A stretch of DNA of 64,000 nucleotides, taken from the NCBI RefSeq assembly GCF_011388215.1, contig NZ_CP049989.1, forward strand, positions 2,046,001-2,110,000, read 5' to 3'. The translations under genes and the position numbers were made by a program. The first letter of the stretch is position 1, and each line of letters begins with the position of its first letter. This DNA is from Hydrogenophaga crocea (GTDB lineage Bacteria > Pseudomonadota > Gammaproteobacteria > Burkholderiales > Burkholderiaceae_C). A model generated the notes under the pieces. The model worked only from the letters and a program-made list of their open reading frames with translations, was not told where the DNA came from and ran no database searches. Below are positions 18,111 through 48,577 of the stretch, piece after piece.

Positions 18111-18118
18111 AAAACCGC

Positions 18119-18146: not shown

Positions 18147-18153
18147 TCGAGCC

Positions 18154-18170: not shown

Positions 18171-18264
18171 AAACGGACGGGAGGGACGCTTGGATCCACA
18201 AGCACCAGCGTCCACGCCGCAACCGTGAGTGCCCTCTTCCATCCACCTCTCAAGGAGTACCGAC

Positions 18265-18807: not shown

Positions 18808-19111
18808 AAAGCGCGCCTTCGGCGCCGCTGATCGCAGGACTTGACTTCCGGTCGGTTGCCCACAATTGAGTGCAGGCAGTCGACCGTAAGCTCTTTCGCA
18901 AGGTCTGCTGCCCCGGTTTTTTTCTGGTTGTCTCCTCGGGTCCCTTTCGAAATTCGATTTCATCGGACCCTTCGAAGCCCCCACCCTGCGGTGGGGGCCT
19001 TTTTTTGTGCCTGGCGCCCGGGGTATTGCCCCTGGCGGGCTTCTAAAATCCCCGCTCCCCTGGCCGGCTGGGTCGTCCGACCCACCGGCGCAGGGCAGCC
19101 CGTGAGACGCC
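18808..19111 (+). other. Phasin 3' region / possible small RNA
   Basis: This 304-bp stretch has no convincing ORF. It starts with a UUCG-type hairpin (GCGCC-TTC-GGCGC, about 18813-18825) and ends in a strong intrinsic terminator (18977-19006) placed 170 nt after the phasin stop. A TTGACT at 18841 followed by CACAAT only 14 bp later could be a weak promoter, so either a long 3' UTR or a short terminator-ended RNA is possible. The remainder up to 19111 holds the upstream region of the halogenase-like gene. Confidence 0.35.
18977..19006 (+). terminator. Rho-independent terminator
   Basis: A 9-bp perfect stem GCCCCCACC/GGTGGGGGC with a 4-nt loop (CTGC) is followed by C and seven T residues. It ends transcription of the phasin unit and isolates it from the pigment operon. 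Confidence 0.92.
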
Positions 19112-20443
19112 ATGCACCCTGCCGACCCCGCGATTCGGACCTGCGACGTACTGGTGATTGGCGGCGGACCGGCCGGCTCGACCGCGTCGACGCTGCTCGC
19201 CCGCCAAGGCCACCAGGTGGTCCTGATCGACAAGGACCACCACCCCCGTTTCCACATTGGCGAGTCGCTGCTGCCCGCCAACATGCCCCTGCTCGATGAA
19301 CTCGGCGTGGGCGAAGCGGTGCGCGCGATCGGCATGCTCAAGCCGGGCGCCGAGTTCGTCTCGCCGCAGCACAGCCACACCCAGACCTATTACTTCGCCG
19401 ACGCCTGGGACAAGTCCATGCCCACGGCCTACCAGGTCAAGCGCGCCGACTTCGACCACCTGCTGCTGCGCAACGCGCAGGCCCAAGGCGTGGAGGTGCA
19501 CGAAGGCACGCGCGCGACCGAGCTCGCCTGGTCCGGCGACCGCCAGCGGCTCGAAACCGTCACCAGCGTCGACGCGCAGGGACTGCGCACCGAATGGCGG
19601 CCGCGCTTCGTGCTCGATTGCACCGGGCGCGACACCCTGCTCGCGGGCCAGTTGCAGGCCAAGCAGAAGAACCCCGACCACAACAGCGCGGCGATCTACG
19701 CCCACTTCCGCGGCGCGCGCCGGCTCAGCGGCCACGACGAGGGCAACATCACCGTGTTCTGGTTCGACCACGGCTGGTTCTGGTTCATCCCGCTGAGTGA
19801 CGGCGCGACCAGCGTGGGCATGGTCACCTGGCCGTACCACATGAAGACGCGCGGCGAGCGCGGCCTGCAGCAGTTCCTGCTCGACAACATCGCCACTTGC
19901 CCCGGGCTGTCCGAGCGGCTGCGTGACGCCGAGATGGTCACGCCCGCCGAGGCCACGGGCAACTACTCGTACACATCGCGCCTGAGCCACGGCGAGGGCT
20001 TTCTGCTGCTGGGCGACGCCTACGCCTTCATCGACCCGGTGTTCTCCTCGGGCGTGTGGCTGGCCATGAGCAGTGCGCAGGTGGGCGCACGCACGGTGGA
20101 CACCTGCCTGCGCGAGCCCGGCAAGGCGCCGGCCGCGCTGCGCGCCTTCGACCGCCACATGCGCCACGGCCCGCGCGCGTTCTCGTGGTTCATCTACCGC
20201 ATGACCAACCCGACCATGCGCGGCTTCTTCATGTACCCGCGCAACCCCCTGCGCATGAAAGAGGCCCTGTTGTCGGTGCTCGCGGGCGACCTGTTCGGAC
20301 GCACGCCCATCGGGCCGTCGCTGCTGGCGTTCAAGAGCCTGTACTTCGCCGTCAACCTGGGCAACCCACTGCGCAGCTGGCGCGCCTGGCGGCAGCGCAA
20401 ACGCAACATCCGCCCCGGCAGCGCACTGCCCACGGGCTCATGA
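19112..20443 (+). CDS. Halogenase-like FAD-dependent oxidoreductase of the aryl polyene cluster
   Basis: A 443-residue flavoprotein of the tryptophan-halogenase/geranylgeranyl-reductase-like superfamily. The FAD site is VLVIGGGPAGSTASTLLAR (about residues 12-30), followed by HIGESLLPANMPLL, and the second FAD motif is FLLLGDAYAFIDPVFSSG. HGWFWFIPLSDG contains the WxWxIP pattern that marks flavin-dependent halogenases and their relatives. GESLLPAN and FSSGVWLAMSSA are typical of the members found in xanthomonadin/aryl polyene clusters; xanthomonadins are brominated aryl polyenes. Halogenation of the aryl head is therefore plausible, but the halogenase lysine was not verified. It heads a four-gene forward operon. 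Confidence 0.85.
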   Translation: MHPADPAIRTCDVLVIGGGPAGSTASTLLARQGHQVVLIDKDHHPRFHIGESLLPANMPLLDELGVGEAVRAIGMLKPGAEFVSPQHSHTQTYYFADAWDKSMPTAYQVKRADFDHLLLRNAQAQGVEVHEGTRATELAWSGDRQRLETVTSVDAQGLRTEWRPRFVLDCTGRDTLLAGQLQAKQKNPDHNSAAIYAHFRGARRLSGHDEGNITVFWFDHGWFWFIPLSDGATSVGMVTWPYHMKTRGERGLQQFLLDNIATCPGLSERLRDAEMVTPAEATGNYSYTSRLSHGEGFLLLGDAYAFIDPVFSSGVWLAMSSAQVGARTVDTCLREPGKAPAALRAFDRHMRHGPRAFSWFIYRMTNPTMRGFFMYPRNPLRMKEALLSVLAGDLFGRTPIGPSLLAFKSLYFAVNLGNPLRSWRAWRQRKRNIRPGSALPTGS

Positions 20444-20501
20444 GGGAACGGCGCACGCGAGCCCGCGCCCACGCCGTGGCATGTCCCCCGGAGCGAAGCC
20501 G

Positions 20502-21488
20502 GTGAGCGGGCTTCACCTGCTGGCCAACGCCCTGCCCGCCGACCCGCGCCACGCACTCGGCGGCGCCGCCGTGCGGGGCGCGCCGGGCGCGCCGGCCTGG
20601 CCCGAACAGCGCCTGCACATGGCCCCGGCTGCCGCCGACACCGCCTGGCGCGAGACCTGGTGCGCGGACGATGCCGTGAACGAAGGCCGCGAGCCGGGCC
20701 TGCATTGGCGCGCCACGCCCGATCTGCTGTTCGGCCTGATCGAGCTCGACGAGCAACCCGGTCCGGGCCGCGGCGAACGCCTGCGCGCGCTCAGCGAACA
20801 GGCCTATGGCCGCCTGTTCGCCCTGCTGCAGGCGCAAGGCATGCCGCACCTGTGGCGGGTCTGGAACTACCTGGCCGAGATCAACCGCGACGACGACGGC
20901 CTGGAGCGCTACCGCTGGTTCAACCAGGGCCGCCACGACGCCTACCGCGCTGCGGGCGCGGCCACCGAACACCTGGTGCCCGCGGCCAGCGCGCTGGGCT
21001 GCACGGGCGGACCGCTGTCCATCGCCTTCATGGCGGGCCGCGCGGCGCCCTGCCCGATCGAGAACCCGCGCCAGATCAGCGCCTTCCACTACCCGGCGCA
21101 ATACGGCCCGCGCCCGCCGGTGTTCGCGCGCGCCGCCCTGGCCTGGCACGGCTCGCGCGAGCTGTTGTTCATCTCGGGCACGGCCAGCATCGTGGGCCAC
21201 GAAAGCGTGCATCCGGGCGACGTGACCGCCCAGTGCGAGGAGACGGCGCGCAACATCCACGCCGTGCTAGGCGCGGCGCGCCGCCACAGCCGCTGCGGCG
21301 GCGTCGGGCCCGACAGCCTGGTGCACCGCGCCTACGTGCGCCACGCCGCGCACATGGATGCGGTGCGCGGTGCACTGCAACGCCACCTGGGCGGCGCCCG
21401 CCTCACGCTGCTGCAGGCCGATGTGTGCCGCACCGAATTGCTGGTCGAGGTCGAATCGCTGGCCATCGCACCGGTGGCGGGCGCATGA
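20502..21488 (+). CDS. Chorismatase, 3-/4-hydroxybenzoate synthase (XanB2/Hyg5/FkbO family)
   Basis: Chorismatases split chorismate into pyruvate and an aromatic or cyclohexadiene acid; XanB2 makes 3- and 4-hydroxybenzoate, the starter for xanthomonadin. The about 328-residue product has the family pattern: HLWRVWNYLAEINRDDDGLE, RYRWFNQGRHDAY, ASALGCTGGPLSIAF, ENPRQISAFHYPAQYGP and LLFISGTASIVGHESVHPG, whose Ser-Gly-Thr-Ala-Ser and Glu residues belong to the RidA-like active site. Two starts are possible: ATG 20481, or GTG 20502, which has CGGAG 8 nt upstream and is preferred. The 3' end overlaps the next gene by ATGA. Confidence 0.9.
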   Translation: MSGLHLLANALPADPRHALGGAAVRGAPGAPAWPEQRLHMAPAAADTAWRETWCADDAVNEGREPGLHWRATPDLLFGLIELDEQPGPGRGERLRALSEQAYGRLFALLQAQGMPHLWRVWNYLAEINRDDDGLERYRWFNQGRHDAYRAAGAATEHLVPAASALGCTGGPLSIAFMAGRAAPCPIENPRQISAFHYPAQYGPRPPVFARAALAWHGSRELLFISGTASIVGHESVHPGDVTAQCEETARNIHAVLGAARRHSRCGGVGPDSLVHRAYVRHAAHMDAVRGALQRHLGGARLTLLQADVCRTELLVEVESLAIAPVAGA

Positions 21489-22234
21489 AGATCCTGCACG
21501 CGCTGCGCGAGCACCTGGCCATGGTCACGGGCCTGGGCCTGCTCGCCCTGCTCTGCCTGAGCTGGTTCCCGCTGGCCATGGTGCTGTACCGCGTGCTGCC
21601 GCGGCGCTGGGGCCAACCGCTGGGGCGGCGCGTGGCCACCCTCACGTTCCGCTTCTACCTGTTCGCGCTCGAGCGCCTGTGCGGCTGCCGCTTCGACCTC
21701 AGCGCGCTCGAGCAACTGCCGCGCGAGGGCCCGATGATCATCGTGGCCAACCACCCGAGCCTGCTCGACGCGGTGCTGCTGATCTCGCGCCTGCCCGATG
21801 CGGTCTGCATCATGAAGGCCGGCCTGATGGACAACCCCATGTTCGGCGCGGCGGCCCGGCTCGCGCGCTACATCCGCAACGACAACCTGCTCAACGTGGT
21901 GCTGCGCTGCCGCCGCGTGCTCAACGAAGGCGGCCAGGTGGTGCTGTTCCCGGAAGGCACGCGCACCACGCGCTGGCCGGTGAACCCGCTGCTGCCCTCG
22001 ATCGGCCTGCTCGCGCAGCGCACGCGCGCCACGGTGCAGACGGTGCTGATCGAGTTCTCCTCGCCCTACCTCGGGAAACAATGGCCGCTGTGGCGCCGCC
22101 CCTCGCTGCCGCTGGTGGTGCGGGTGCGCCTGGGCCGGCGTTTCGAGCCGCCCGACGACGCGTGCGGTTTCAATCAGGCACTGCAGCAACATTTCGACGA
22201 CGAATTGCGGGCCGGACCGCACACCGCCGCGTGA
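21485..22234 (+). CDS. 1-acyl-glycerol-phosphate-type acyltransferase of the APE cluster
   Basis: A PlsC-family membrane acyltransferase of 249 residues. An N-terminal hydrophobic anchor (about residues 12-38) is followed by the HX4D catalytic motif in IIVANHPSLLDAVLLIS and the substrate-binding FPEGTRTTRWP. In aryl polyene clusters two acyltransferase types are typical, and one is thought to attach the polyene acid to a glycerol or sugar lipid. The start overlaps the chorismatase stop by ATGA, and the gene lies just before a glycosyltransferase. A role in general phospholipid synthesis is unlikely given the location, but cannot be excluded. Confidence 0.87.
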   Translation: MKILHALREHLAMVTGLGLLALLCLSWFPLAMVLYRVLPRRWGQPLGRRVATLTFRFYLFALERLCGCRFDLSALEQLPREGPMIIVANHPSLLDAVLLISRLPDAVCIMKAGLMDNPMFGAAARLARYIRNDNLLNVVLRCRRVLNEGGQVVLFPEGTRTTRWPVNPLLPSIGLLAQRTRATVQTVLIEFSSPYLGKQWPLWRRPSLPLVVRVRLGRRFEPPDDACGFNQALQQHFDDELRAGPHTAA

Positions 22235-22235
22235 C

Positions 22236-23033
22236 ATGCTCCGCCCCATGCCCCAGACGCCCGCAATGCCCCACACGTCCCGCACCCACCTCGTCCTGAT
22301 CCCCAGCTACAACCCCGGCGAGCTGCTCGCCGTCACGGTGCGCGCGGCGCGCGCGCAATGGGCGCCCGTGTGGGTGGTGGTCGACGGCAGCACCGACCAC
22401 TCCACCGCCGCCGTGCAGGCCATGGCCGAACAAGACCCGCAGCTGCGCGTGATCGTGCTGCCGCACAACCAGGGCAAGGGCGCGGCAGTGCTCGCGGGCC
22501 TGCAGGCCGCGGCCGCCGAAGGCTTCACGCATGCGCTCACCATGGACGCCGACGGCCAGCACCCGGCCGAACTCATCCCCACGTTCATGGCCACCTCCGC
22601 GGCCGCACCCGAGGCCATGGTGCTGGGCAAGCCGGTGTTCGGCCCCGAAGCGCCCGCGCTGCGCGTGCAGGGCCGGCGCGTGTCCAACGCCTGGGCCAAC
22701 CTGGAAACCCTGGGCATGGGCGTGGGCGATTCGCTCTACGGCTTTCGCGTGTACCCGATCGCGGCGCTGGTGCGCGTGATGCGGGGCACGCGCTTCATGC
22801 GCCGCTTCGATTTCGACCCCGAGGCCGTGGTGCGGCTGTGCTGGGCCGGCGTGCGGCCCATCAACGTGGACGCGCCGGTGCGCTACCTGCAGCCCGACGA
22901 GGGCGGTGTGTCGCACTTCAAATACCTGCGCGACAACGCCCTGCTCAGTTGGATGCACACCCGCCTGTTCACGGGCTTCGTGCTGAGGTTGCCGCTGCTG
23001 CTGGCGCGCCGGCTCAGGCCATCGCGCCGTTGA
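22236..23033 (+). CDS. Glycosyltransferase family 2 of the APE cluster
   Basis: A GT-A fold glycosyltransferase of about 265 residues. The nucleotide-sugar domain shows HLVLIPSYNPGELLAVTV, VVDGSTDHSTAAV and the metal-binding DXD-type ALTMDADGQHP. The C-terminal part lacks long membrane segments but has a hydrophobic patch (LFTGFVLRLPLLLARRL) that could associate with the membrane. It is last in the forward operon, starting one base after the acyltransferase stop; internal ATGs at 22248 and 22266 are alternative starts closer to the conserved fold. Its 3' end overlaps the ketoreductase gene by 20 bp, tail to tail. A role in glycosylating the pigment or its lipid carrier is inferred. Confidence 0.88.
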   Translation: MLRPMPQTPAMPHTSRTHLVLIPSYNPGELLAVTVRAARAQWAPVWVVVDGSTDHSTAAVQAMAEQDPQLRVIVLPHNQGKGAAVLAGLQAAAAEGFTHALTMDADGQHPAELIPTFMATSAAAPEAMVLGKPVFGPEAPALRVQGRRVSNAWANLETLGMGVGDSLYGFRVYPIAALVRVMRGTRFMRRFDFDPEAVVRLCWAGVRPINVDAPVRYLQPDEGGVSHFKYLRDNALLSWMHTRLFTGFVLRLPLLLARRLRPSRR

Positions 23034-23733
23034 TGCCGATCACCTGGCCGCTGATGTAGCCCGCCGCGTCGCTGGCCAGGAAGGCCACGAGCGCGGCCAC
23101 CTCGTCGGCGCGGCCCGCGCGCTGCATGGGCACGAGCTGCTTGATGGCGTTGGCGTCGAAGGCCTCGGTGGCCATGCCCGTGTCCACGATGCCCGGCGCC
23201 ACCGCGTTCACCGTGATGCCGCGCGAAGCCACTTCGAGCGCGAGCGAGCGCCCCGCCGCGTGCAGCGCGGCCTTGGCCGCCGCGTAGTTGGCCTGGCCGC
23301 GGTTGCCCATCACGCCCGAGACCGAGCTGATGTTGATCACGCGGCCCCAGCGCGTGCGGATCATGGGCAGCAGCAGCGGCTGCGTGACGTTGAAGAAGCC
23401 ATTGAGCGAGACGTCGATCACGCGGTCCCATTGCTCGCCGCGCATGCCGGCGAGCACCGCGTCGTCGTGGATGCCCGCGTTGTTCACCAGCACCTGCACC
23501 GGGCCGGCCTCGACCACCGCGGCCAGCGCCTGCGCGCAGGCCTCGCGGTCGGTGACGTCGAAGCGCAGGGCCTCGGCGCTGCCGCCGGCGTCGCGCAGGC
23601 GCTGCGCGAGCGCCTCGGCGCGTTCCAGGCCCTGGTTGGCGTGGATCAGCACATGAAAGCCGTCTTGCGCCAGGCGCTGCGCGATGGCCGCGCCCAGGCC
23701 GCCGCTGCCGCCCGTGACCAGCGCGCGCTTCAT
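23014..23733 (-). CDS. 3-oxoacyl-ACP reductase of the APE cluster (FabG/ApeQ-like)
   Basis: An NADPH-dependent SDR that reduces the beta-keto group after each extension round. It has 239 residues, with the Rossmann motif TGGSGGLGAAIAQRL at the N-terminus, NNAGIHDDAV, the Ser in INISSVSGVMG and the YxxxK pair in NYAAAKAALH; the SQNY tetrad is complete. The end, GYISGQVIGINGAMA, is typical of FabG. It is the last gene of the reverse pigment operon, overlapping the dehydratase stop by ATGA. Equivalent to ApeQ in the E. coli aryl polyene system, by position and family. Confidence 0.93.
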   Translation of the reverse strand: MKRALVTGGSGGLGAAIAQRLAQDGFHVLIHANQGLERAEALAQRLRDAGGSAEALRFDVTDREACAQALAAVVEAGPVQVLVNNAGIHDDAVLAGMRGEQWDRVIDVSLNGFFNVTQPLLLPMIRTRWGRVINISSVSGVMGNRGQANYAAAKAALHAAGRSLALEVASRGITVNAVAPGIVDTGMATEAFDANAIKQLVPMQRAGRADEVAALVAFLASDAAGYISGQVIGINGAMA

Positions 23734-24194
23734 GCCGCCCCCCCGGTCGCGGCCGCGGCATCGAGCACCGCGGCCGCGCGGCCGTCGGCCAGGGCGCCGC
23801 GCGCGCCCTCGACGCGGAACTGGTAGAGCACGCTGCCGCCGTCGCCCGACAGGCGTTCGGCGCGGATGCGCAGCGGCGCGTCGGCGGCCTCGATCGTGTC
23901 GCGGTGCAACTGCACGCCACGCACGCTCGCGAGGTAGCCGGCCTTGGGCGCGTCGTCACGGCCCGCGAGCAGCGTGCCGTGCACCGCCATGGCCTGGGCC
24001 GCGTACTCCACCGCGTGCACGGCCGACAGCGCGCCTTCGTGGCGCAGCGGGTGGGTGTCGCCGGGGTCGGGCCAGGCTTCGCACTCGATGGCCGACGCGG
24101 ACCAGTGCAGCACGCGGTCGAGCAGGCACATGCGGCCCTGGTGGGGAATGCGGCGCGCGATCGCGTCGCGCTCGAGGGTGGCGTCAGGGCTCAT
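23730..24194 (-). CDS. Hotdog 3-hydroxyacyl-ACP dehydratase (ApeP-like)
   Basis: A 154-residue hotdog dehydratase subunit. RIPHQGRMCLLDRVLHW corresponds to the FabZ-type His strand, and SAVHAVEYAAQAMAVHG to the central helix with the catalytic Glu. It differs from housekeeping FabZ in lacking the GHFPGxPxxPG motif. In the characterised aryl polyene system two unequal hotdog proteins (ApeI and ApeP) work as a heterocomplex; the second partner here is the gene at 32239-32571. It removes water to create each conjugated double bond. It lies between the chain-length factor (3-bp gap) and the ketoreductase (ATGA overlap). Confidence 0.85.
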   Translation of the reverse strand: MSPDATLERDAIARRIPHQGRMCLLDRVLHWSASAIECEAWPDPGDTHPLRHEGALSAVHAVEYAAQAMAVHGTLLAGRDDAPKAGYLASVRGVQLHRDTIEAADAPLRIRAERLSGDGGSVLYQFRVEGARGALADGRAAAVLDAAAATGGAA

Positions 24195-24197
24195 GGG

Positions 24198-24986
24198 TCA
24201 ACGCGGGGTGAAGCGCAGCTGCAGGTGCTGCGGCGCGAGGTATTCGACGGTGGCCGGCGCGGTGTCGCCGCGGGCGATGCGTTCGAGCAGGGGCAGCGCG
24301 CGCAGCGAGGGGAAGGCGGCGCGCAGGCCCTCCAGGCCCGGGTCGGCCATGGCGTCGGCGGCGCCGCGCACCAGCGCGGTCTGCACCTGGCCCAGGCTGT
24401 GCGCGCGCGGCGCGCGGCCCAGCCACAGCGCCAGGCCCGCGGCGTCGGGCAAGGGGCGGCAGGCGTGCAGCGGCTCGGGGTACTCGCTGTCGTAGGCCAC
24501 AAGCAGCACCTCGTCTTCGGTCTGGAGCTGGCCGAGCGCGTCGAGCCAGCCCGCGCCGAAGCTCGCGTCGTGCGCGCAGAGCACCTGGCTGGGCGCCATC
24601 GAGCGCGTGGCGATGCCCCAGTAGCCCGCGGCCGCGTTGTGCACCGAGTTGTGGAAGCGCGTGGGCGAGATCGCACGGTCTTCGCCCGCGAGCTGTTCGC
24701 ACAGCGCATGGCAGTTGTGGCCGTCGGCGCCCGAAGCGGTGAACACGGTGGCGATGTCGGCCGGGTCCTGGCCGTCGAGCGCCTGCAGGCCGAGCGCGAG
24801 CGCCACGCGCACCACGCGGCTGGCACGCCGGCGCTCGGCCGCGGGCAGGCGATCGGCCGGCGGCAGCACGGTGGGCGCGTTCGCCCACGCGGCTTCGCCG
24901 CGCAGCACGGTGCGCGCCTGCGTCCAATGGTCGAGGCCCGGCGCGATCAGCCCGATGCCGTGCAGCCAGAGGGAGGGCAGGCTCAT
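24198..24986 (-). CDS. Beta-ketoacyl synthase chain-length factor (ApeC-like)
   Basis: A 262-residue KS-like protein of the ketoacyl-synt_2 type, shorter than true ketosynthases. It keeps thiolase-fold segments such as ATVFTASGADGHNCHAL, SPTRFHNSVHNAAAGYWGIA and the SQVLCAHDASFGAGWL region, but the active-site Cys of the partner KS (SSACSSS) aligns with Ser in HDASFGA, and the two catalytic His motifs are missing because the C-terminal half is short. This fits a non-catalytic chain-length factor pairing with the adjacent KS, as ApeC does with ApeO. The coding regions overlap by ATGA, favouring stoichiometric synthesis. Confidence 0.87.
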   Translation of the reverse strand: MSLPSLWLHGIGLIAPGLDHWTQARTVLRGEAAWANAPTVLPPADRLPAAERRRASRVVRVALALGLQALDGQDPADIATVFTASGADGHNCHALCEQLAGEDRAISPTRFHNSVHNAAAGYWGIATRSMAPSQVLCAHDASFGAGWLDALGQLQTEDEVLLVAYDSEYPEPLHACRPLPDAAGLALWLGRAPRAHSLGQVQTALVRGAADAMADPGLEGLRAAFPSLRALPLLERIARGDTAPATVEYLAPQHLQLRFTPR

Positions 24987-26188
24987 GCGCTTCCCCTGCT
25001 GAAGACCAGGCTCGCGTTGCTGCCGCCGAAGCCGAAGGAATTCGACAGCACGTGGCGCATGCCGGGCAGCGCGCTGCCCTCGCGGCGGTAATCGATGTCG
25101 ATCGCGGGGTCGACCGTTTCGGTGCCCGGGCTGCCGGGCAGCCAGCCCTCGGCCAGCGCGATGGCGCAGACCACGGCTTCGAGCGCACCCGCCGCGCCCA
25201 GCGTGTGGCCGGTGGCGCCCTTGGTCGACGAGCAGGGCACGCCGCGGCCGAACAGCGCGGCCACGGCCAGGCCCTCGGCCGCGTCGTTGGCGGGCGTGGC
25301 CGTGCCGTGCAGGTTGATGTAGTCGATGTCGCCCGGCTGCAGGCCCGCGCTGCGCAGCGCCGCGGCCATGGCGCGCTGCGCGCCCAGGCCCTCGGGGTGC
25401 GGCGCCGACATGTGGTGCGCGTCGCTCGACTCGCCCACGCCCAGCAGGCGCAGGGGCGCGGGTGCCTGGCCCGGCTCGAGCAGCGCGAAGGCCGCGGCCT
25501 CGCCGATGGAGATGCCGTCGCGCGCGGCATCGCCCGGGCGGCAGGGTTGCGGCGAGGTGAGCTGCAGCGAGGCGAAGCCGTAGAGCGTGGTCAGGCACAA
25601 GGAATCGACGCCGCCCACCACGGCCGCGTCGATGGTGCCGGCCTGCAGCTGGCGCGCCGCGGCCGCGAATACCTTGGCGCTGGACGAGCACGCGCTCGAC
25701 AGGCTCATGGCCATGCCCTCGATGCCGAAGGCCGTGCGCACGAAGTCGGCCACCGAGTAGGTGTTGTGCGTGGTGGCGTAGTGGAAGTCGGGGGGCAGCG
25801 CGCCGCTGGCCGGGTCGCGGCGGCGGTAGGCGAGCTCGGTCTCGAGAATGCCCGAGGTGCTGGTGCCCACGAACACGCCCACGCGGTCGGCACCGCAGCG
25901 GGCCACGGCCGCGCGCACGCGCTCGGCGAAGCCGTCGGCCTGCAGCGCGAGCCAGGCCAGGCGGTTGTTGCGGCAGTCGAAGCGCTCCAGGCCGGCGGGC
26001 AAGGCCACGGCGTCCACGCCGGGCACTTCGCCGATCCAGGTCGGCAGGTCCACGGTTTCGAAGCGGCAGGGCGTGAGGCCGCTGCGGCCCTCGCGCAGCG
26101 CCCGGGTGTGCGCGGCCACGCCCTGCCCCAGGCAGGAGGTGGCGGTGTGCGCGGTGATGGCGACCGGTGGCATGACGAAGGCCTGCAT
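24983..26188 (-). CDS. Beta-ketoacyl-ACP synthase (ApeO-like)
   Basis: The condensing enzyme that extends the polyene chain with malonyl-ACP, 401 residues. All three catalytic residues are visible: Cys167 in SLSSACSSSAK, His in INLHGTATPAND and His in SSTKGATGHTLGAAGALEA. The C-terminus SNSFGFGGSNASLVF is standard for FabF/FabB. ATG 26188 shares a base with the methyltransferase stop (TGATG); an in-frame ATG five codons later (26173) is possible. It is directly followed by the chain-length factor, with which it should form a KS-CLF heterodimer. Confidence 0.93.
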   Translation of the reverse strand: MQAFVMPPVAITAHTATSCLGQGVAAHTRALREGRSGLTPCRFETVDLPTWIGEVPGVDAVALPAGLERFDCRNNRLAWLALQADGFAERVRAAVARCGADRVGVFVGTSTSGILETELAYRRRDPASGALPPDFHYATTHNTYSVADFVRTAFGIEGMAMSLSSACSSSAKVFAAAARQLQAGTIDAAVVGGVDSLCLTTLYGFASLQLTSPQPCRPGDAARDGISIGEAAAFALLEPGQAPAPLRLLGVGESSDAHHMSAPHPEGLGAQRAMAAALRSAGLQPGDIDYINLHGTATPANDAAEGLAVAALFGRGVPCSSTKGATGHTLGAAGALEAVVCAIALAEGWLPGSPGTETVDPAIDIDYRREGSALPGMRHVLSNSFGFGGSNASLVFSRGSA

Positions 26189-26907
26189 CAGCGCACCCGG
26201 CAATGCAGCATGACGTTGGCGAAGGGCTTGCGCCCGCTCATGTCGCGGTGGCTCACCTCGAAGCCCAGGGCCTCGAGGTCGCTGCGCCACTCGGCCAGCG
26301 GGCGGCAGTGCAGGCGCGGCAGCCGGTGGCCGCGCGCGAACGTGACGACCTTGTCGACCCCGTTGCACACGTGAAAGCGCCAGCCCGCCGAGGCATCGCC
26401 GATGCGCGTGAGGAACACACCGCCGCGCGGCAGCGCTTCGCGGATGCGGCGCAGCAGCGCGCGCTGGCGGTCCACATCGACGTAGTGCAGCGCGTCGAGG
26501 ATGGTCACGGCCTCGGGCTGGCCGAGCGCGCTCTCGGTCATGTCGCCGAGCTCGATGCGCACCACCGGGTGGTCGGCGCCGAAGGCCTGGCGCGCGCGCT
26601 CCACGTCGGCCGGCATGAGCTCGATGCCGCGCAGCTCGGTGGCGCGCGGCGCGGGCGCCCAGCCGGCGGGCCAGTGGCCGCGTTCGGCCATCTGCTGCGC
26701 CGCGAGCAGCCACGAGAACAGGCTGCCCTGGCCGCTGCCGAGGTCGAGCACGCGCGTGGCGCCGCCCAGCAGGCCGTGGCTCAGCACGTGGTGGAAGATG
26801 GTGTCGTGGCCCAGCTTGCCGCGCGCGTAGTGGTAGGCGAAAGGCCCACCCGCGCGGAAGCGGCTGCTCGCGTGGTCGACGAGGTCTCGGATGAAGGCGT
26901 GGCTCAT
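26188..26907 (-). CDS. Class I SAM-dependent methyltransferase of the APE cluster
   Basis: A 239-residue methyltransferase. The SAM site is ATRVLDLGSGQGSLFSWLL (motif I, about residues 51-69), with acidic ELRGIELMPADVERAR as motif II and VTILDALHYVDVDRQRALL as the post-motif segment. The N-terminal SRFRAGGPFAYHYARGKLGHD is characteristic of methyltransferases in aryl polyene clusters. The likely role is methylation of the aryl head group or its hydroxyl, since many aryl polyenes carry a methyl or methoxy group. Coding overlaps at both ends (ATGA with the upstream deacetylase, TGATG with KS). Confidence 0.87.
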   Translation of the reverse strand: MSHAFIRDLVDHASSRFRAGGPFAYHYARGKLGHDTIFHHVLSHGLLGGATRVLDLGSGQGSLFSWLLAAQQMAERGHWPAGWAPAPRATELRGIELMPADVERARQAFGADHPVVRIELGDMTESALGQPEAVTILDALHYVDVDRQRALLRRIREALPRGGVFLTRIGDASAGWRFHVCNGVDKVVTFARGHRLPRLHCRPLAEWRSDLEALGFEVSHRDMSGRKPFANVMLHCRVR

Positions 26908-30762: not shown

Positions 30763-31337
30763 GGCTTGCTCACCGGCGCGCTGATGCTCATTTCGGAGCG
30801 GTCACCGTCGGCCTGCTGGTATTCGATGTGGCGCACCAGCGCCTGCTCGCCGCTGATCGCGATGCGCGTGACGATGGCCAGCATGCGCGGCTCGCGCGGC
30901 ACCAGCGTGAGCGTCCAGCGCTGGCGGTTGCCCTGGTAGGCGAGCGCGTAGTGGCGCTCGAGCCCGGCGCGGTCGCCCGCGAGCGTGCTGCGCACGCTGG
31001 CCACGAAGGCCATCACCTCGGGGCGCTGCGACACCGGCATGCTGAAGCGGCGGCGCTCGCGCTCGACCGTGAGCGTGTCTTTTTCGAGCAGCACGCGCTC
31101 GGGCCGCGGCTTGAGCGTGCGGCGTTCGAGCCAGTCGGGCGGGTAGTAGCTCATCTCGCCGCTCGATTCGAGCGGCTTGTCGAACATGGCCATGTGGCGC
31201 TTCTCGACAAAGCGCACCGTGCCGCCGGGGTTGGCGGCCAGCTCGGCCATCAGGCGGTCGATGTCGTCGGCGGCGCGGGCCGCGCCCAGGGGCAGCAGCA
31301 GCAGCAGCGCGAGCAGACAGGTCCAGCGGGTGATCAT
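30759..31337 (-). CDS. LolA-like outer membrane lipid carrier of the APE cluster
   Basis: A periplasmic 192-residue protein with a signal peptide (CLLALLLLLPLGAARA-A, cut near residue 22) and a LolA-like half-barrel: GGTVRFVEKRHMAMFDKPL, SGEMSYYPPDWLERRTL and WTLTLVPREPRMLAIVTRI. These cluster-specific LolA relatives are thought to carry the polyene lipid, not lipoproteins, from the exporter to the outer membrane. ATG 31337 directly precedes the signal peptide; longer readings lie in the acyltransferase gene. ATGA overlaps with genes on both sides. Confidence 0.88.
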   Translation of the reverse strand: MITRWTCLLALLLLLPLGAARAADDIDRLMAELAANPGGTVRFVEKRHMAMFDKPLESSGEMSYYPPDWLERRTLKPRPERVLLEKDTLTVERERRRFSMPVSQRPEVMAFVASVRSTLAGDRAGLERHYALAYQGNRQRWTLTLVPREPRMLAIVTRIAISGEQALVRHIEYQQADGDRSEMSISAPVSKP

Positions 31338-32242
31338 GCGTTCCAGAAGTCGAAGAAGTTGAACCAGTTGTAGGGCGCGGCGCGGCAGTGGGCCTGCAGG
31401 CATCGCACGTAGTCTGCCTGGGCCTGGCGCGACTGCGCCGCGCGCTGCGCGCGTTGTGCACCGCGCAGGTCGGCAATGGGCTCGAACACCAGCCGGTAGC
31501 GCCGCCCGCCCAGGTACAGGCCGGCCATGAAGAACACCGGCGCGCGCAGCACCGTGGCCATGTGCCAGGGTGCGAGCGGGAAGCCCGCGGGCGCGCCGAG
31601 GAAATCGTGCGGCACGCGGTCCTCGCGCGTGAGCGAGCGGTCGACCAGCAGGCCCACGAGCTGTCCTTGCTCGAGCCGCCGCGAGGCCTCGATCATCGAG
31701 TCGGGCTGGCCCAGGGCCACCACGTCCTGGCGCGCGTCGGGGTTGATGGCGCGCAGGGCGTCGGCCACCTTGCGCGCGTTGTCCTCGAACATCATCATGG
31801 CCACGCGGATGTCGGGGTGGCGGCGGCCCACGCAGCGCAGCACCTCGAAGCTGCCCAGGTGCGCGCCCATGAGCAGCACGCCCTGCCCGCCCTTCATGGC
31901 CTGCAGCAGCGCCTCGCCGCCTTCGATTTCGATGTCGAACAGGTCGAAGCGGTCGTTGAGCAGGAACACGCGGTCGTGCACCGTGGTGGCGAAGCTGAAC
32001 AGGTGGCGGTAGACCTCGCGCCAGTGCGCGGGCCGGCCGAGCACACGCGCCAGGTAATCGCGGCTCGCGCGCCGCGCGCGGGGCGCAAACAGCACGAAAT
32101 AGGCCGTGGCCCCGTGCAGCACCACGCGGCTCAGCGAGCGGCCGAGCAGCAGCGACAGGCGCACCATGAAGCGCAGCAGCCAGGCGTTGCTGCGCTCGGG
32201 CTGGTTGCGCCAGTCGGGGCGGGCCGCGCCGGGCTGCGTCAT
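31334..32242 (-). CDS. LpxL/HtrB-like acyltransferase of the APE cluster
   Basis: A 302-residue member of the lauroyl/myristoyl acyltransferase family (LpxL). One N-terminal membrane segment is followed by the catalytic HX4E motif in LLMGAHLGSFEVLRCVGRR, plus DRVPHDFLGAPAGFPLAPW, and it ends in APYNWFNFFDFW, matching the family C-terminus. Housekeeping LpxL acts on lipid A; this one sits inside the pigment operon, where a matching acyltransferase is conserved and may acylate the sugar-polyene or lipid anchor. Overlaps (ATGA) join it to both neighbours. Distinct from the PlsC-type enzyme on the other strand. Confidence 0.9.
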   Translation of the reverse strand: MTQPGAARPDWRNQPERSNAWLLRFMVRLSLLLGRSLSRVVLHGATAYFVLFAPRARRASRDYLARVLGRPAHWREVYRHLFSFATTVHDRVFLLNDRFDLFDIEIEGGEALLQAMKGGQGVLLMGAHLGSFEVLRCVGRRHPDIRVAMMMFEDNARKVADALRAINPDARQDVVALGQPDSMIEASRRLEQGQLVGLLVDRSLTREDRVPHDFLGAPAGFPLAPWHMATVLRAPVFFMAGLYLGGRRYRLVFEPIADLRGAQRAQRAAQSRQAQADYVRCLQAHCRAAPYNWFNFFDFWNA

Positions 32243-32571
32243 GGCGCGGCCGGTTCGGGTTTGAGCTGGCCCTGCGCCACCACCACGCCGGCGTGCAGGA
32301 ACTCGAAGGCGAAGGCCGACGACGGCAGCGCGCGCAGCCGCAGCCGCAGCAACTGCCCGGGCGCCACGGTGCGCAGGAACTTGGCCTGCGGCAGCGCCCA
32401 GCGTGCGGCGCCGGGCGCGAGCGTGCGCGCGGCCTGCAGGGCCTGGTCGAGCAGCACCACGCCGGGCAGGATGGGCTGGCCCGGGAAGTGGCCCGCGAAG
32501 GCCGGGTGGTCGGCGGGCACCACCCAGTCGCGCTCCAGGGCGAAGGCGGGGGTGGCCTCAGGCGCGCTCAT
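32239..32571 (-). CDS. Small hotdog dehydratase (FabZ-like, ApeI-type)
   Basis: A 110-residue hotdog protein carrying DHPAFAGHFPGQPILPGVVL, the FabA/FabZ active-site helix motif with catalytic His in GHFPG. The position of the catalytic acid holds Asp (VLLDQALQA), as in FabA, rather than Glu as in FabZ. It is shorter than FabZ (about 150) at both ends. It likely pairs with the ApeP-like subunit at 23730-24194. It starts inside the ligase gene (14-bp overlap) and ends in an ATGA overlap with the acyltransferase. Earlier in-frame codons (ATG upstream) would extend into the ligase; ATG 32571 (MSAPEATPAFALE) is preferred. Confidence 0.85.
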   Translation of the reverse strand: MSAPEATPAFALERDWVVPADHPAFAGHFPGQPILPGVVLLDQALQAARTLAPGAARWALPQAKFLRTVAPGQLLRLRLRALPSSAFAFEFLHAGVVVAQGQLKPEPAAP

Positions 32572-33904
32572 GCAACACCTCCCGCCGATACAGAGCACCC
32601 AGCGCCTCGCGCGTGAGCTTGCCGGTGGCGTTGCGCGGCAGGCCGGGCAAGAGCACCAGCGGGCGCGGCAGGAAGATCGGGTCGAGCCGCTCGCGCAGCA
32701 GCGCCATGAGCTGCGCGGCGCTGTGCTGCGGCGCCACCGCGAAGGCCGCGAGGCGGGTGATGCCGGGCGCGTCGTCGGCGCCGTCAGGCAGGTAGAAGGC
32801 CGCGTCGACCACGCCGGGCAGGCCCGCGAGCTGCTGGTTCAGGTAGGCCAGCGACGTGCGCTTGCCCGCGATGTTGACAAGATCGGCGATGCGGCCGTGC
32901 AGCACGAAGCGGCCGTCGGGCAGCGGCTCGAGCACGTCGGCCAGCGGCACCTCGCCCTCCACGTGACCGCCCGAGGCGGTGGCCACGTCGGCCTCGATGC
33001 GCAGGGCCACCTGCTGCATCAGGGTCCAGGGCACGCCGTCCACCGTGCGCCGGCTGGCCAGCGCCGACGACTCGGTGGAGCCGTAGATCTCGTGCACCTG
33101 CGCGCCGCTGGCGGCCTCGGCCTGGCGCGCCAGGCCTTCGGCCAGCGGCGCGGTGGCCGAGAGCACGCGCTCCAGCGGCACGCTGGGCAGCGCCGCCGCC
33201 AGCCAGTTGCCCAGGTGAAAAGGCGTGGTGACGAGCATGCGCGGCGCGGGCACGGCGGCCAGTGCGTCGGCGATGTCCTGCGGGTAGAAGGGCTTGCCCG
33301 ACCAGAAGCGGCAGCCGCCGTGCAGCGCGAGCAGCAGGGTCGACTCGAAGCCGTAGCTGTGCTGCACCGGCACCGTGCCCACCAGCGAACACGGGCGCTC
33401 GAGCAGACCCAGCGCCGCGGCCTCGGCCTGGCCGTTGCGCACCAGACGGCCCCAGTGCTTGCGGTGCGGCTGCGGCCGGCCGGTGGAGCCCGAGGTGAAC
33501 AGAATGGCCGCCACCTGCGCGTCGTCGATCAGGGGCACGGCCTCGGGCAGCGGCCCGCCCTGCCCCGCGCGCGCGGGCACCGCGAGGGCCGGCAGGTCGG
33601 CAGGCGCGGCGGTGGCGTCGACCAGGCACACCGAACCGGGATAGTCCTCGGCCACCTGGCGCAGGCTGTGCGGCGCCTGCGACGAGGGCTGCAGGCTGGT
33701 CTTGCCGCGCAGCAGACCGGCCGCAAAACCCACGGCAAAGCGGTAGCGGTCTTCACACAGGTTGATGAGCTGGCCCTGCGCCGGCAGCTGCGCGGCAAAG
33801 GCCAGGGCGTCGGCCAGGAACTCGCGCACGCTCACCGGGCCTTCGGGGCACCAGGCGAGCACGTCGTCGAGGCCGTGGCGCGTGATCAGGGGGGAACGGC
33901 TCAT
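32558..33904 (-). CDS. AMP-dependent aryl/acyl-ACP ligase (ApeH-like)
   Basis: An ANL-superfamily adenylating enzyme of 448 residues that activates a carboxylic acid as the acyl-AMP. The P-loop motif is AAILFTSGSTGRPQPHRKHW, followed by VHEIYGSTESSALASR (A5-like) and GRFVLHGRIADLVNIAGKR (A7/A8), and the C-terminal Lys motif NATGKLTREAL. In APE systems such a ligase loads hydroxybenzoate onto the carrier protein, which fits the chorismatase nearby. ATG 33904 lies four bases after the membrane gene stop. The sequence is short for ANL enzymes, as is usual for cluster-type ligases. Confidence 0.9.
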   Translation of the reverse strand: MSRSPLITRHGLDDVLAWCPEGPVSVREFLADALAFAAQLPAQGQLINLCEDRYRFAVGFAAGLLRGKTSLQPSSQAPHSLRQVAEDYPGSVCLVDATAAPADLPALAVPARAGQGGPLPEAVPLIDDAQVAAILFTSGSTGRPQPHRKHWGRLVRNGQAEAAALGLLERPCSLVGTVPVQHSYGFESTLLLALHGGCRFWSGKPFYPQDIADALAAVPAPRMLVTTPFHLGNWLAAALPSVPLERVLSATAPLAEGLARQAEAASGAQVHEIYGSTESSALASRRTVDGVPWTLMQQVALRIEADVATASGGHVEGEVPLADVLEPLPDGRFVLHGRIADLVNIAGKRTSLAYLNQQLAGLPGVVDAAFYLPDGADDAPGITRLAAFAVAPQHSAAQLMALLRERLDPIFLPRPLVLLPGLPRNATGKLTREALGALYRREVLHERA

Positions 33905-33908
33905 GGGA

Positions 33909-34556
33909 TCAGGGTCGGTGCGCGCCACGCCGGCGCTCGTGGTCGCGGCGCCAGGCCTGCACCACCGTGGCCAGGCCGGGCCGCTCGTGGGGCGGCAGCA
34001 CGCAGCGGCGCCAGAGCGATTCGAGCAGGAACATCAGGCCCAGCAGCGGGCCGGTGAGCACATTGGCGTGCACCGACCAGACCTCGCGCGGTGCCAACAG
34101 GAACAGGCCGGTGGACACGCTGGCGTTGAGCAGGAAAAACGCGGTCCAGGCCCAGGTGACCTGGCGCGTGTAGCGCAGGTTGCGCGCCGAGAGCCCGGGG
34201 CCGAAGATGCCGCGCGCCATGCGCGTGACCAGGGGCTCGGCCCCGCCCATGAGGCTGGCGCCGAACAGCGCGGCGAGCGCCAGGTGCACACCCAGGTGCT
34301 GCAGGTAGTAGAGAAAGGCGACTTGCTGGCGCAGCAGCGGCCACAGCACCCACAGCAGGCCTGCGCAGGCCAGCGCAAGCAACAGCTTCAGGAGCAGCGA
34401 GCGCCAGCGCGCCGCGACGACGAAAACCGCGAGCACCAGCGGCGCCACCGCCACCGCCACATGCAGGTCCATGGGCCCGCGCCCCGTGCTGCCCAGGTGC
34501 GACGCGGCGATCCAGCCCAGCAGCACCAGCCCGGAGCCGGCGGCGCGCAGCTTCAT
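33909..34556 (-). CDS. COG4648-type predicted membrane protein of the APE cluster
   Basis: A 215-residue integral membrane protein with about six hydrophobic segments, starting MKLRAAGSGLVLLGWIAASH and including VAVAVAPLVLAVFVVAARW, LLLALACAGLLWVLWPLL and LGVHLALAALFGASLM. It corresponds to the ketosynthase-linked membrane protein found between the ACP and ligase genes in many aryl polyene clusters; its biochemical role is not established. Charged loops RMARGIFGPGLSARNLRY and the Arg-rich C-terminus face the cytoplasm. The gene overlaps the ACP stop by ATGA. The longer frame upstream reads through the ACP gene out of frame and is not used. Confidence 0.75.
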   Translation of the reverse strand: MKLRAAGSGLVLLGWIAASHLGSTGRGPMDLHVAVAVAPLVLAVFVVAARWRSLLLKLLLALACAGLLWVLWPLLRQQVAFLYYLQHLGVHLALAALFGASLMGGAEPLVTRMARGIFGPGLSARNLRYTRQVTWAWTAFFLLNASVSTGLFLLAPREVWSVHANVLTGPLLGLMFLLESLWRRCVLPPHERPGLATVVQAWRRDHERRRGAHRP

Positions 34557-34840
34557 GTGGTGCGGTGGCGCGCGATGTGGGCCGCGAGCGAGCGCGGGCT
34601 GGCGAAGATCTGCTGGTTCTTCTCGTTGTCCGAGCGCATCTGGAAGCCGTAGCGCTTGGAGATCACCAGGGAGATCTCGAGCATGTCGATCGAGTCCAGG
34701 CCCAGGCCCTCGCCGTACAGCGGCGCATCGGGGTCCACGTCCTGCACGGTCAGCTCGAGGTTCAGCGCCTCGATGATGAGCTGCACCAGTTCGGGCACGA
34801 GCCGGTCGATCGCTTCGGGTTGAACGGCATCTTCCTGCAT
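34553..34840 (-). CDS. Acyl carrier protein (APE cluster, first)
   Basis: A 95-residue carrier with the phosphopantetheine site GLGLDSIDMLEISLV; Ser50 is the attachment residue. It is longer than AcpP (about 78) at the N-terminus, with an acidic start (MQEDAVQPEAIDRLVPE), and its C-terminal tail is basic (ASPRSLAAHIARHRTT). This carries the aryl starter or growing polyene for the cluster ketosynthases. It lies 56 bp after the KS gene and overlaps the membrane gene by ATGA; the gap before it may hold its own ribosome binding site. Confidence 0.93.
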   Translation of the reverse strand: MQEDAVQPEAIDRLVPELVQLIIEALNLELTVQDVDPDAPLYGEGLGLDSIDMLEISLVISKRYGFQMRSDNEKNQQIFASPRSLAAHIARHRTT

Positions 34841-34896
34841 GGTGGGGTTTTCCTCGGGGAACGGAAGGTGGGAATCGGGAGGTGTGTAACGGGACG

Positions 34897-36153
34897 TCAG
34901 GCGGGCGCGCCAAAGGCCAGCACCGCGTTGCTGCCCCCGAACGCGAACGAGTTGCTCAGGGCCGCGCGCAGGCCGCTCGCGCGGCGGCCTTCGAGCACGT
35001 GGTCCACGCCCTCGCAGGCGGGATCGATGCGGCCGCGCAGCTGCGCCGTGGGCGGGATGGCCTGCTCGCGCACGGCGAGCGCGGTCACCACGGCCTCGAT
35101 CGCCCCGGCCGCACCCAGCAGGTGGCCGTGCACGGACTTGGTCGAACTCACGGGCAGGCGCGGGGCCAGGGCACCGAACACGTCGCGCAAGGACTGGACT
35201 TCGATCGGATCGCCCTCGGGCGTGGCGGTTCCGTGGGCGTTGATGTAACCAATGTCTTCAGCGGCCAGGCCGGCGTCGGCCAGCACGGCGTTCAGGGCCC
35301 GCACCTGGCCCGCGCGGTCGGGCCGCACCAGGTGGGTGTGATCGCAGTTGGTGGCGTAACCGAGCAGCTCGGCGTGGATGCGCGCGCCGCGCGCCACGGC
35401 GTGGTCCCAGTCTTCGAGCACCAGGGCCGCGCCGCCCTCGCCGAGCACCAGGCCATCGCGGTCCTGGGCGAAGGGGCGGCAGGCGCGCCAGGCCGTGTCG
35501 GCGTCGCCCTTGGCCAGCACGCGCATGGCCTCCCAGGCGCGCACCACGCTCATGGACTGGCAGATGTCGGAGCCGCCCGTGACCATCACCGGCGCCTCGC
35601 CCGCGCGCACGCGGCGAAAGGCCTCGCCGATGGCGATGGTGGAGGAGGCGCAGGCCGCCGTGTGGCTGCTGCTCACACCGCCCAGTCCGAACTGGATGGA
35701 GATGTGCGCGTTGGCCGCGTTGTTCATGCCCATCACCACCGACAGCGGCGACACGCGCTCGCGGCCGTTGAGCCAGAGCTCGCGCGAGCCGCGTTCGTGG
35801 GCCGACAGGCCACCGAGCGCGGTGCCCCAGAAGCAGCCCCAGGCACTGCGGTCGCTGCCGTCGTCGGCGGCCGATTTCGCGAAGCCGGCATCGCGCCAGG
35901 CCGCGAAGGCCGCGGACACGCCGAGCTGCGAGAAGCGCTCCATCATGGAGGCCAGCGGCTTGCCCAGCTCACGCTCGGGCTCGAAGCCCTGGCACAGCAC
36001 AAAAGGGGTCTGGATCGGGCGCGGCTTTTCGTCCACCGCCATCCAGCGCACCGCCGATTCACCGGCCAGCACACGCTCGAAGAAATCGTCCAGACCACCG
36101 CCGTAGGGGCTGACCACCCCGAGGCCGGTGACCGCGACGCGACGCCGCGCCAT
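34897..36153 (-). CDS. Beta-ketoacyl-ACP synthase (ApeR-like)
   Basis: The second full ketosynthase of the cluster, 418 residues from ATG 36153. Catalytic residues: Cys168 in SSHTAACASSTIAIGEAF, His in INAHGTATPEGDP and His in SSTKSVHGHLLGAAGAIEA; C-terminus SNSFAFGGSNAVLAF. It differs from the KS at 24983 in having no adjacent chain-length factor, and probably performs the first condensation on the aryl-ACP or an independent step. A GTG at 36159, overlapping the ACP stop as GTGA, would add two residues. It lies between the two ACP genes at the head of the operon. Confidence 0.93.
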   Translation of the reverse strand: MARRRVAVTGLGVVSPYGGGLDDFFERVLAGESAVRWMAVDEKPRPIQTPFVLCQGFEPERELGKPLASMMERFSQLGVSAAFAAWRDAGFAKSAADDGSDRSAWGCFWGTALGGLSAHERGSRELWLNGRERVSPLSVVMGMNNAANAHISIQFGLGGVSSSHTAACASSTIAIGEAFRRVRAGEAPVMVTGGSDICQSMSVVRAWEAMRVLAKGDADTAWRACRPFAQDRDGLVLGEGGAALVLEDWDHAVARGARIHAELLGYATNCDHTHLVRPDRAGQVRALNAVLADAGLAAEDIGYINAHGTATPEGDPIEVQSLRDVFGALAPRLPVSSTKSVHGHLLGAAGAIEAVVTALAVREQAIPPTAQLRGRIDPACEGVDHVLEGRRASGLRAALSNSFAFGGSNAVLAFGAPA

Positions 36154-36155
36154 GC

Positions 36156-36395
36156 TCACCCCGTCTTGACCGGCGACAGCGAATCGATGATCGCGACCAT
36201 CTCGGCCACGGTCCTGGGCGGCGTCTGGTCGGACGAAATGTCGATGCCCATGCGGTCCTCCGCTTCGAACATGAGCTCGGCGAGCATGAGCGAATCGACG
36301 CCCAGGTCGGCCAGCACGGCCTCGGGCACCACGGCGGCTTCGGCCACGCCCAGGCGGTCCACGAGGAACCGGCGGATCAGTTCGATGGAGTTCAC
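36156..36395 (-). CDS. Acyl carrier protein (APE cluster, second; first gene of operon)
   Basis: A 79-residue carrier protein with the 4'-phosphopantetheine site LGVDSLMLAELMFEAEDRMG; Ser35 is modified. The start is a GTG (36395) with AGGGA at 5-6 nt upstream; an ATG five bases earlier in another frame stops after two codons. Initiating with GTG, this gene is easily missed or mis-started. It has the acidic helix II expected for ACP. It is the promoter-proximal gene of the 16-gene reverse operon. Confidence 0.9.
   Translation of the reverse strand: MNSIELIRRFLVDRLGVAEAAVVPEAVLADLGVDSLMLAELMFEAEDRMGIDISSDQTPPRTVAEMVAIIDSLSPVKTG

Positions 36396-46207: not shown

Positions 46208-48577
<2,370 letters not shown>

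Follow-up and report, generated by a model that had tools for sequence, protein, structure and literature searches.

Predicted one-piece aryl polyene gene cluster of the xanthomonadin/arcuflavin type in a Hydrogenophaga, with a chorismatase and a halogenase-family gene

Gene content and borders of the cluster

We analysed a window of 64,000 nucleotides from Hydrogenophaga crocea (contig NZ_CP049989.1, positions 2,046,001 to 2,110,000), whose genome is one contig of 4.56 Mb. As a preliminary description of this DNA had proposed, an open reading frame (ORF) listing and Pfam/NCBIfam searches confirmed twenty consecutive genes at 19112-36395 of the window, which very probably form a complete, one-piece aryl polyene (APE) cluster of the xanthomonadin/arcuflavin type. 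Below, "place of" refers to the arcuflavin (arc) loci of Azoarcus sp. BH72, azo3910-3921 and azo0253-0264, compared by annotation and order only, as given in the accessible text of PMC3949708.

18977..18998, plus strand: terminator-like hairpin with T-run between the phasin and halogenase genes (hairpin scan, weak)
19112..20443, plus strand: FAD-dependent halogenase-family enzyme, 443 amino acids (place of ArcA); Pfam Trp_halogenase, 110 bits; GGGPAG, K77, WFWFIP, FIDPVFSSG
20481..21488, plus strand: FkbO/Hyg5/XanB2-type chorismatase, 335 amino acids (place of ArcB), candidate for 3-hydroxybenzoate (3-HBA) starter supply; PF21168; TIGR04444 below cut-off
21485..22234, plus strand: PlsC-type acyltransferase (place of ArcD); PF01553
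22266..23033, plus strand: family 2 glycosyltransferase, GT2 (place of ArcE), alternative start 22236; PF00535
23014..23733, minus strand: 3-ketoacyl-ACP reductase, KR (place of ArcH); PF00106/PF13561; YAAAK motif
23730..24194, minus strand: dehydratase DH1, weakly ApeP-like (place of ArcI); PF22817 (E = 0.018) and 6qsr_B (E = 0.025), both below cut-off; place conserved
24198..24986, minus strand: ketosynthase-like chain-length factor, CLF (place of ArcJ); PF13723, 94 bits; sole PDB matches 7f28_A and 6qsp_B
24983..26188, minus strand: ketosynthase KS2 (place of ArcK), Cys in ACSSS; NF006618, 544 bits, above cut-off; top PDB matches 7f28_B and 6qsp_A
26188..26907, minus strand: S-adenosylmethionine-dependent methyltransferase (place of ArcM); PF13649/PF08242
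26904..27734, minus strand: polysaccharide (NodB-type) deacetylase (place of ArcN); PF01522
27731..28393, minus strand: alpha/beta hydrolase with GISLG motif (place of ArcO), candidate esterase/thioesterase, alternative start 28408; PF00756
28405..30762, minus strand: MMPL/RND-type exporter (place of ArcP); PF03176
30759..31337, minus strand: LolA-like periplasmic carrier (place of ArcQ); PF19574 (LolA_3); flexirubin LolA2 model below cut-off
31334..32242, minus strand: LpxL-type acyltransferase (place of ArcR); PF03279
32239..32571, minus strand: ApeI-like dehydratase DH2 (place of ArcS); PF22818 and PF07977, above cut-off
32558..33904, minus strand: AMP-forming acid ligase (place of ArcT); PF00501, PF13193
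33909..34556, minus strand: membrane protein (place of ArcU); 0 Pfam/NCBIfam matches; ACP-membrane protein-ligase placement conserved in relatives
34553..34840, minus strand: acyl carrier protein ACP1 (place of ArcV), DSI serine; PF00550; NF006617 above cut-off
34897..36153, minus strand: second ketosynthase KS1, FabF-like; PF00109/PF02801
36156..36395, minus strand: acyl carrier protein ACP2, DSL serine; PF00550
36671..37369, plus strand: PAP2-family lipid phosphatase, divergent from ACP2, start uncertain; PF01569

The first four genes, from the halogenase-family enzyme to the glycosyltransferase, lie on the plus strand, and the other sixteen, read from ACP2 down to KR, on the minus strand; the two convergent operons overlap at 23014-23033. 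With the starts listed, neighbouring genes on one strand overlap by 1-14 bases at 11 of 18 junctions, a pattern suggestive of translational coupling. Direct reading located motif strings in 14 of the 20 cluster proteins and in the PAP2 protein.

The best PDB matches of KS2 and CLF are the solved heterodimers 7f28 and 6qsp, which we take to be ketosynthase pairs from APE pathways. NF006618 and PF13723 likewise mark an APE-type ketosynthase paired with a short CLF. The KR, the dehydratases (DH1 weakly), the ACPs and the acid ligase of an APE pathway are all present, as are genes for membrane attachment and export (acyltransferases, LolA, MMPL), and starter supply by the chorismatase is indicated by protein family and by co-occurrence with the APE core. 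Families, motifs and gene order thus bear out the earlier assignment to a xanthomonadin-type APE cluster, and family searches recovered the tailoring and export genes that it had named. Its list of extension genes needs one correction: the KR and two dehydratases stand, DH1 weakly, and what had been called a ketosynthase and a ketosynthase-CLF are two ketosynthases, with the CLF a gene of its own.

The right border is probably at 37369, with the PAP2 gene part of the cluster, because this gene diverges from ACP2 and recurs within or beside some related clusters (four of 20 chorismatase loci of the family, and further loci). On the left, the hairpin at 18977-18998, which divides the phasin gene from the halogenase gene, is a possible border; terminator-like sites across the region numbered 8 against 5.6 in shuffled sequence, and the signal is hence weak.

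Conservation of the cluster among relatives

The chorismatase is present in 47 of 299 genomes of the GTDB family, and we fetched 40 kb around it in 20 of the 46 other genomes. KR, DH1, the ligase and ACP1 stand in similar order at 12 of these 20 loci, joined by KS2 and CLF at 10 (G071 and G053 have neither). Two further loci (G122, G119) hold a partial gene set only, and six have at most isolated KR- or KS-like matches. The recurrence of this order at 12 of 20 loci places the gene block far beyond chance. Among 67 genomes of the genus, CLF was found in 41, the flavin enzyme (the halogenase-family protein) in 42 and the chorismatase in 40. The cluster's position, with phasin and histone-deacetylase genes as neighbours, is shared by five genus relatives (G301, G305, G328, G341, G332); a plasmid search returned only relatives below 60% identity.

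Same-type flavin enzymes, 53-60% identical, accompany nine of the 12 APE-bearing family loci. Several observations weigh against the assignment as drawn here. Family support is weak for one of the twenty genes, that for DH1, and absent for another, that for the membrane protein. At three of the 12 APE-bearing family loci no same-type flavin enzyme lies within 40 kb (G064 has a distant one of 25% identity, G227 and G053 none), so the enzyme is not essential to the pathway. In G332 (L217, G332:C21) the cluster stands at the same place with no halogenase gene between phasin and chorismatase, and a 52% paralogue lies elsewhere. Lastly, a glutamine in ORF16 of Lysobacter is reported in all CLF homologues (PMC3691225), and no glutamine was found among the 95%-conserved columns of 70 CLFs.

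Other Hydrogenophaga clusters carry extra genes by Pfam: in G280 these are MipA and a Na/H exchanger, in G208 a UbiE-type methyltransferase. The MipA and exchanger genes match arcC and arcG by annotation, so that the window cluster looks like a trimmed version.

G332, with an APE cluster and no halogenase gene in it, offers a natural comparison strain. Some Hydrogenophaga APE loci (L208, L212, L213, L215) have a second, distant flavin enzyme of 23-26% identity, and an extra KS/CLF-like pair lies near some of them.

The chorismatase and starter supply

The preliminary description had placed a XanB2-like chorismatase inside the cluster, and PF21168 and the likeness to XanB2/Hyg5 agree. We aligned the protein with FkbO and Hyg5. 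Gly233, Cys316 and Glu323 fall at Hyg5 G240, C327 and E334, and FkbO has Ala at the first of these. In the accessible text of PMC7170507, the Hyg5-type signature is Gly, Gly, Cys (G164, G231 and C318 of Nat-Hyg5) and the catalytic acid is Glu-334. Because it shares Gly, Cys and Glu with Hyg5, we call the enzyme a putative 3-HBA-forming chorismatase close to Hyg5/XanB2. One residue departs from Hyg5: Ala171 stands at Hyg5 G173, so the Gly-Gly-Cys signature of CH-II (Hyg5) is incomplete, with the second Gly and the Cys present, and the enzyme is not of plain Hyg5 type. Alanine at this position is shared by all 53 chorismatases in the best 80 of 578 named loci and by 18 family loci out of 20, the exceptions being G244 with Leu and G026 with Gly. 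All 20 family loci retain the Gly, Cys and Glu, as do the 53 wherever these residues could be aligned.

Across the genus, CLF and chorismatase occur together in 38 genomes, CLF alone in three and chorismatase alone in two (n = 67). The two genes lie within ~18 kb on one contig in 19 of the 38, the present genome included. They are 2.5-4.2 Mb apart in G312, G343, G302 and G320 (1-3 contigs each), and on separate contigs in the other 15, drafts that cannot resolve the distance. This association without linkage supports a starter role independently of gene order (kinship uncorrected). Chorismatases of type CH-III (XanB2) are characterised by two products, 3-HBA and 4-hydroxybenzoate (4-HBA). The corresponding Azoarcus enzyme, ArcB, gave both when E. 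coli was the culture host, and in vitro the formation of 3-HBA alone depended on the enzyme, according to the accessible text of PMC3949708.

The chorismatase might instead be mainly a 4-HBA source for ubiquinone, with a double role like that of XanB2, which feeds ubiquinone in Xanthomonas according to the accessible text of PMC5069965. A PF04345 search found no UbiC in the present genome, and UbiC occurs in none of the 40 chorismatase genomes and in six of the 27 others (Fisher p = 0.003, uncorrected for kinship and genome quality). A profile built from two UbiC proteins of the genus found the same six of 67 genomes. With PF04345 and this profile, 21 of 67 genomes have neither UbiC nor chorismatase, which makes a further 4-HBA source in the genus probable; the chorismatase tracks the APE core instead (38 of 40). 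In a partial test of one neighbourhood, the 1.5 kb that follow the malate-synthase match proved free of UbiC both in 10 genomes lacking the two genes and in 13 chorismatase-positive genomes; three of 30 genomes had no such match, 10 of 13 neither-gene genomes being searchable. As a control, UbiC stands at this site in three of four UbiC genomes and ~10 kb away in G361. We consider a mainly ubiquinone-directed role rather unlikely; a double role is possible and not required. That the chorismatase is the sole 4-HBA source is hinted at by the missing UbiC and weakened by the genomes with neither gene, and we rejected it.

As an observation in its own right, the source of 4-HBA for ubiquinone is unexplained in those 21 of 67 Hydrogenophaga genomes.

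The flavin enzyme

The earlier mention of a halogenase-like gene held good: the product is a halogenase-family enzyme with intact motifs. Besides Trp_halogenase it matches FAD_binding_3, and the CmlS and QhpG models score below their cut-offs. By sequence, its closest solved relatives are 8zop, CndH (3e1t), Mpy16 (5buk), ChlB4, CmlS, a Cytophaga flavoprotein (3nix), PltA, RadH and Bmp2 (5bul, 5bva). A structural model (mean pLDDT 72.7, from a nine-sequence alignment) resembles solved halogenases; its matches are headed by FasV (8zop), followed by CndH, CmlS, ChlB4, Mpy16, RadH, Bmp2, 3nix and PltA. K77 aligns, within a one-residue gap, with a lysine of the solved halogenases that is presumably their catalytic lysine. 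GxGxxG is also present, with WxWxIP and FxxPxxSxG, which we take to be the names of flavin-halogenase motifs. A catalytic lysine is mentioned for the family in the accessible text of PMC8269204.

Fifteen motif residues, K77 among them, are kept at every one of the best 80 among 578 confirmed named loci and at 30 of 30 genus loci, including the present one. The named loci were found with patterns covering parts of W-x-W and HPRFHIGE, so that conservation there is partly built in; K77 lies outside the patterns. In a class-level sample found by profile (35 of 369 genomes matched, our own included; 29 loci of the 34 others), the residues are kept at 29 of 29 loci except for Ser-to-Thr at S313 in two. 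Another cluster gene lies within the fetched flank at 28 of the 29 class loci and at 74 of the best 80 named loci (flavin enzyme only at L086, L099, L121, L132, L150 and L160), and a flavin enzyme occurs somewhere in 40 of the 41 CLF genomes of the genus. These flanks and this co-occurrence tie the flavin enzyme lineage to APE clusters. Nine of the first 14 named loci are from Hydrogenophaga, the best at 73% identity. In a quick tree the window's flavin enzyme groups with same-genus genomes whose sequences equal those of named Hydrogenophaga records, among them G341 (isolate ACE_PRO41) and G315 (IBVHS1).

Taking sequence and model together, the flavin enzyme is most likely a true CndH/PltA-type halogenase that works on the aryl ring, perhaps restricted to conditions where bromide is present. 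That it halogenates under some condition has, in our estimate, somewhat better than an even chance. What counts against this is arcuflavin (C41H52O4, no halogen), which the accessible text of PMC3949708 interprets as non-brominated despite the annotated halogenase gene arcA in its cluster. Presence of the gene thus does not predict halogen in the product, and the halogenated product suggested earlier is unsupported. The enzyme may then not be, or no longer be, a halogenase here, and would oxidise or otherwise tailor the aryl or polyene part of a halogen-free pigment. Some members of the fold are indeed not named halogenases: 3nix, among the first 20 structural matches, was deposited as a flavoprotein/dehydrogenase, and the QhpG and LodB models score below CmlS. 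Most of the best structural matches are nevertheless named halogenases, and all motif residues examined are kept across the wide class sample. Xanthomonadins, moreover, carry bromine, and a halogenase gene stands in the clusters of two Xanthomonas species (PMC3691225). We regard a non-halogenating enzyme as quite possible, and halogenation as the better reading. More tentatively, and on balance doubtfully, a halogenase lineage that accompanies APE clusters throughout the GTDB class Gammaproteobacteria may have been kept catalytically intact without a permanently halogenated pigment, through bromide-only halogenation or through hypohalous acid/flavin-peroxide chemistry used for other tailoring.

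Several Hydrogenophaga (for example L220-L225) have a second same-type flavin enzyme, 50-52% identical to that of the window, encoded outside the APE cluster. Its placement within a Variovorax/Pseudorhodoferax/Rhizobacter group points to transfer, and in L220 it adjoins an apparent UbiE-type methyltransferase gene, judged by eye.

Proposed pathway and product

Gene content, motifs, gene order and the co-occurrence of chorismatase and APE core were observed; from them we infer the chemical steps, the anchor and what the flavin enzyme does. The chorismatase would convert chorismate to 3-HBA, which the AMP-forming ligase would load onto an ACP. KS2-CLF, assisted by KS1, would extend the starter with malonyl units, and the KR and the two dehydratases would turn the chain into a conjugated polyene. 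The methyltransferase and the flavin enzyme would modify the aryl end, and the alpha/beta hydrolase may release the polyene acid. The acyltransferases, the GT2 and the deacetylase would attach the polyene to a (glyco)lipid, and MMPL and LolA would carry the pigment towards the outer membrane. Glycosylation of the product is plausible; the GT2 and deacetylase may build the lipid anchor rather than decorate the polyene.

The product could also be a polyene esterified, as in arcuflavin, with a dialkylresorcinol (DAR), given that the genes match the core of both arc loci. Three proteins of the complete genome match the KAS III C-terminal family (FabH, 2.4 kb from FabF; an HMG-CoA-synthase-like protein; a thiolase below cut-off), and no KAS III-type protein passes the DarB model NF053539, FabH reaching 71 bits against a cut-off of 550. 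The HMG-CoA-synthase-like protein and the thiolase gave no DarB match at E 1e-10 or better (the thiolase among its best 25 families); DarA was not searched for. We rejected the DAR ester as very improbable, and the arcuflavin ester itself is unlikely.

Comparison with known clusters

According to the accessible text of PMC3949708, the Hydrogenophaga block shares with the arc loci of BH72 the halogenase, chorismatase, acyltransferase, glycosyltransferase, KR, dehydratase, CLF and ketosynthase genes of one run, and the methyltransferase, deacetylase, hypothetical, exporter, LolA, acyltransferase, dehydratase, ligase, hypothetical and ACP genes of another. It is one cluster where BH72 has two loci and has KS1, ACP2 and PAP2 in addition, whereas counterparts of arcC, arcF, arcG, arcL, arcW and arcX are absent from the block and a DarB-model match is absent from the genome.

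By description, the xanthomonadin (pig/xan) cluster of Xanthomonas shares a type II polyketide synthase with a CLF-like protein, the chorismatase XanB2 and a halogenase gene. Bromination is known for Xanthomonas xanthomonadin but not for the Hydrogenophaga product. The yellow pigment cluster of Lysobacter enzymogenes shares a ketosynthase with the CLF-like ORF16, a KR, two dehydratases, an ACP, exporters and a dolichyl-phosphate-mannose-synthase-like gene; unlike the present block it holds no halogenase gene, and its pigment is non-brominated (PMC3691225). The APE cluster of E. coli CFT073, in the accessible text of PMC8253772, has a comparable order of ACP, membrane protein, ligase, dehydratase, acyltransferase, LolA, exporter, ketosynthase, dehydratase and KR. 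Its Table 1 lists no chorismatase, halogenase or deacetylase there, and the LolB-like, lipoprotein and thioesterase genes of CFT073 have no counterparts as such in the Hydrogenophaga block.

Within the genus, the accessible text of PMC12993520 reports for Hydrogenophaga sp. SL48 a region of antiSMASH class arylpolyene and some regions resembling xanthomonadin I. The suggestion that the product is probably undescribed in this lineage therefore lacks support, though no described product was found: among the papers listed in searches of the open-licence literature, none showed a chemical structure of a Hydrogenophaga aryl polyene.

Pigment colour and phototrophy genes

The present genome also encodes a CrtB-like protein (below cut-off), CrtD, BchC, BchX and PufL/PufM near the contig start (G000:C1 ~15700-29062; L198, L228), and judging from these genes the strain can probably make carotenoids and bacteriochlorophyll. 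With carotenoid, bacteriochlorophyll and reaction-centre genes in the same genome, a yellow colour cannot be assigned to the APE cluster from sequence, and the earlier proposal that the cluster may explain yellow pigmentation is not supported in that form. The visible colour may come from carotenoids or bacteriochlorophyll, with the APE cluster minor or silent. PufLM is found in 23 of 67 genus genomes, and no sigma-70 consensus promoter was found in 18700-37500, where the chance expectation is just 0.3 and the scan is weak for such DNA. Set against this, the APE cluster is intact and conserved, APE (41 of 67) is commoner than PufLM in the genus, and 30 of the 41 APE genomes lack PufLM. We hold this origin of the colour to be a serious contender, a little short of even.

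Mutual exclusion of APE and phototrophy is unsupported (both in 11 genomes, APE only in 30, PufLM only in 12, neither in 14; Fisher p = 0.12).

Other genes in the window

On the minus strand, 58199-60375 holds a class III extradiol dioxygenase beta subunit gene (protocatechuate 4,5-dioxygenase type) and another whose match to 4-sulfomuconolactone hydrolase falls below cut-off; this is probably a cluster for degrading aromatic acids. Genes for the DnaG primase and the sigma factor RpoD lie at 43967-48577 on the plus strand.

Discussion

The cluster appears to be a clean one-locus version of a pathway that is split in two in Azoarcus, and it suits heterologous expression. For the genus, colour is not assignable to one pigment from genes, since 11 of 67 genomes combine APE CLF with reaction-centre genes. 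The cluster also poses the question of why such clusters keep an intact halogenase when beta-proteobacterial arcuflavin, in the accessible text of PMC3949708, has no bromine. If non-permanent halogenation is true, it could be tested in Hydrogenophaga, where a single genome combines APE genes, carotenoid genes and a halogenase.

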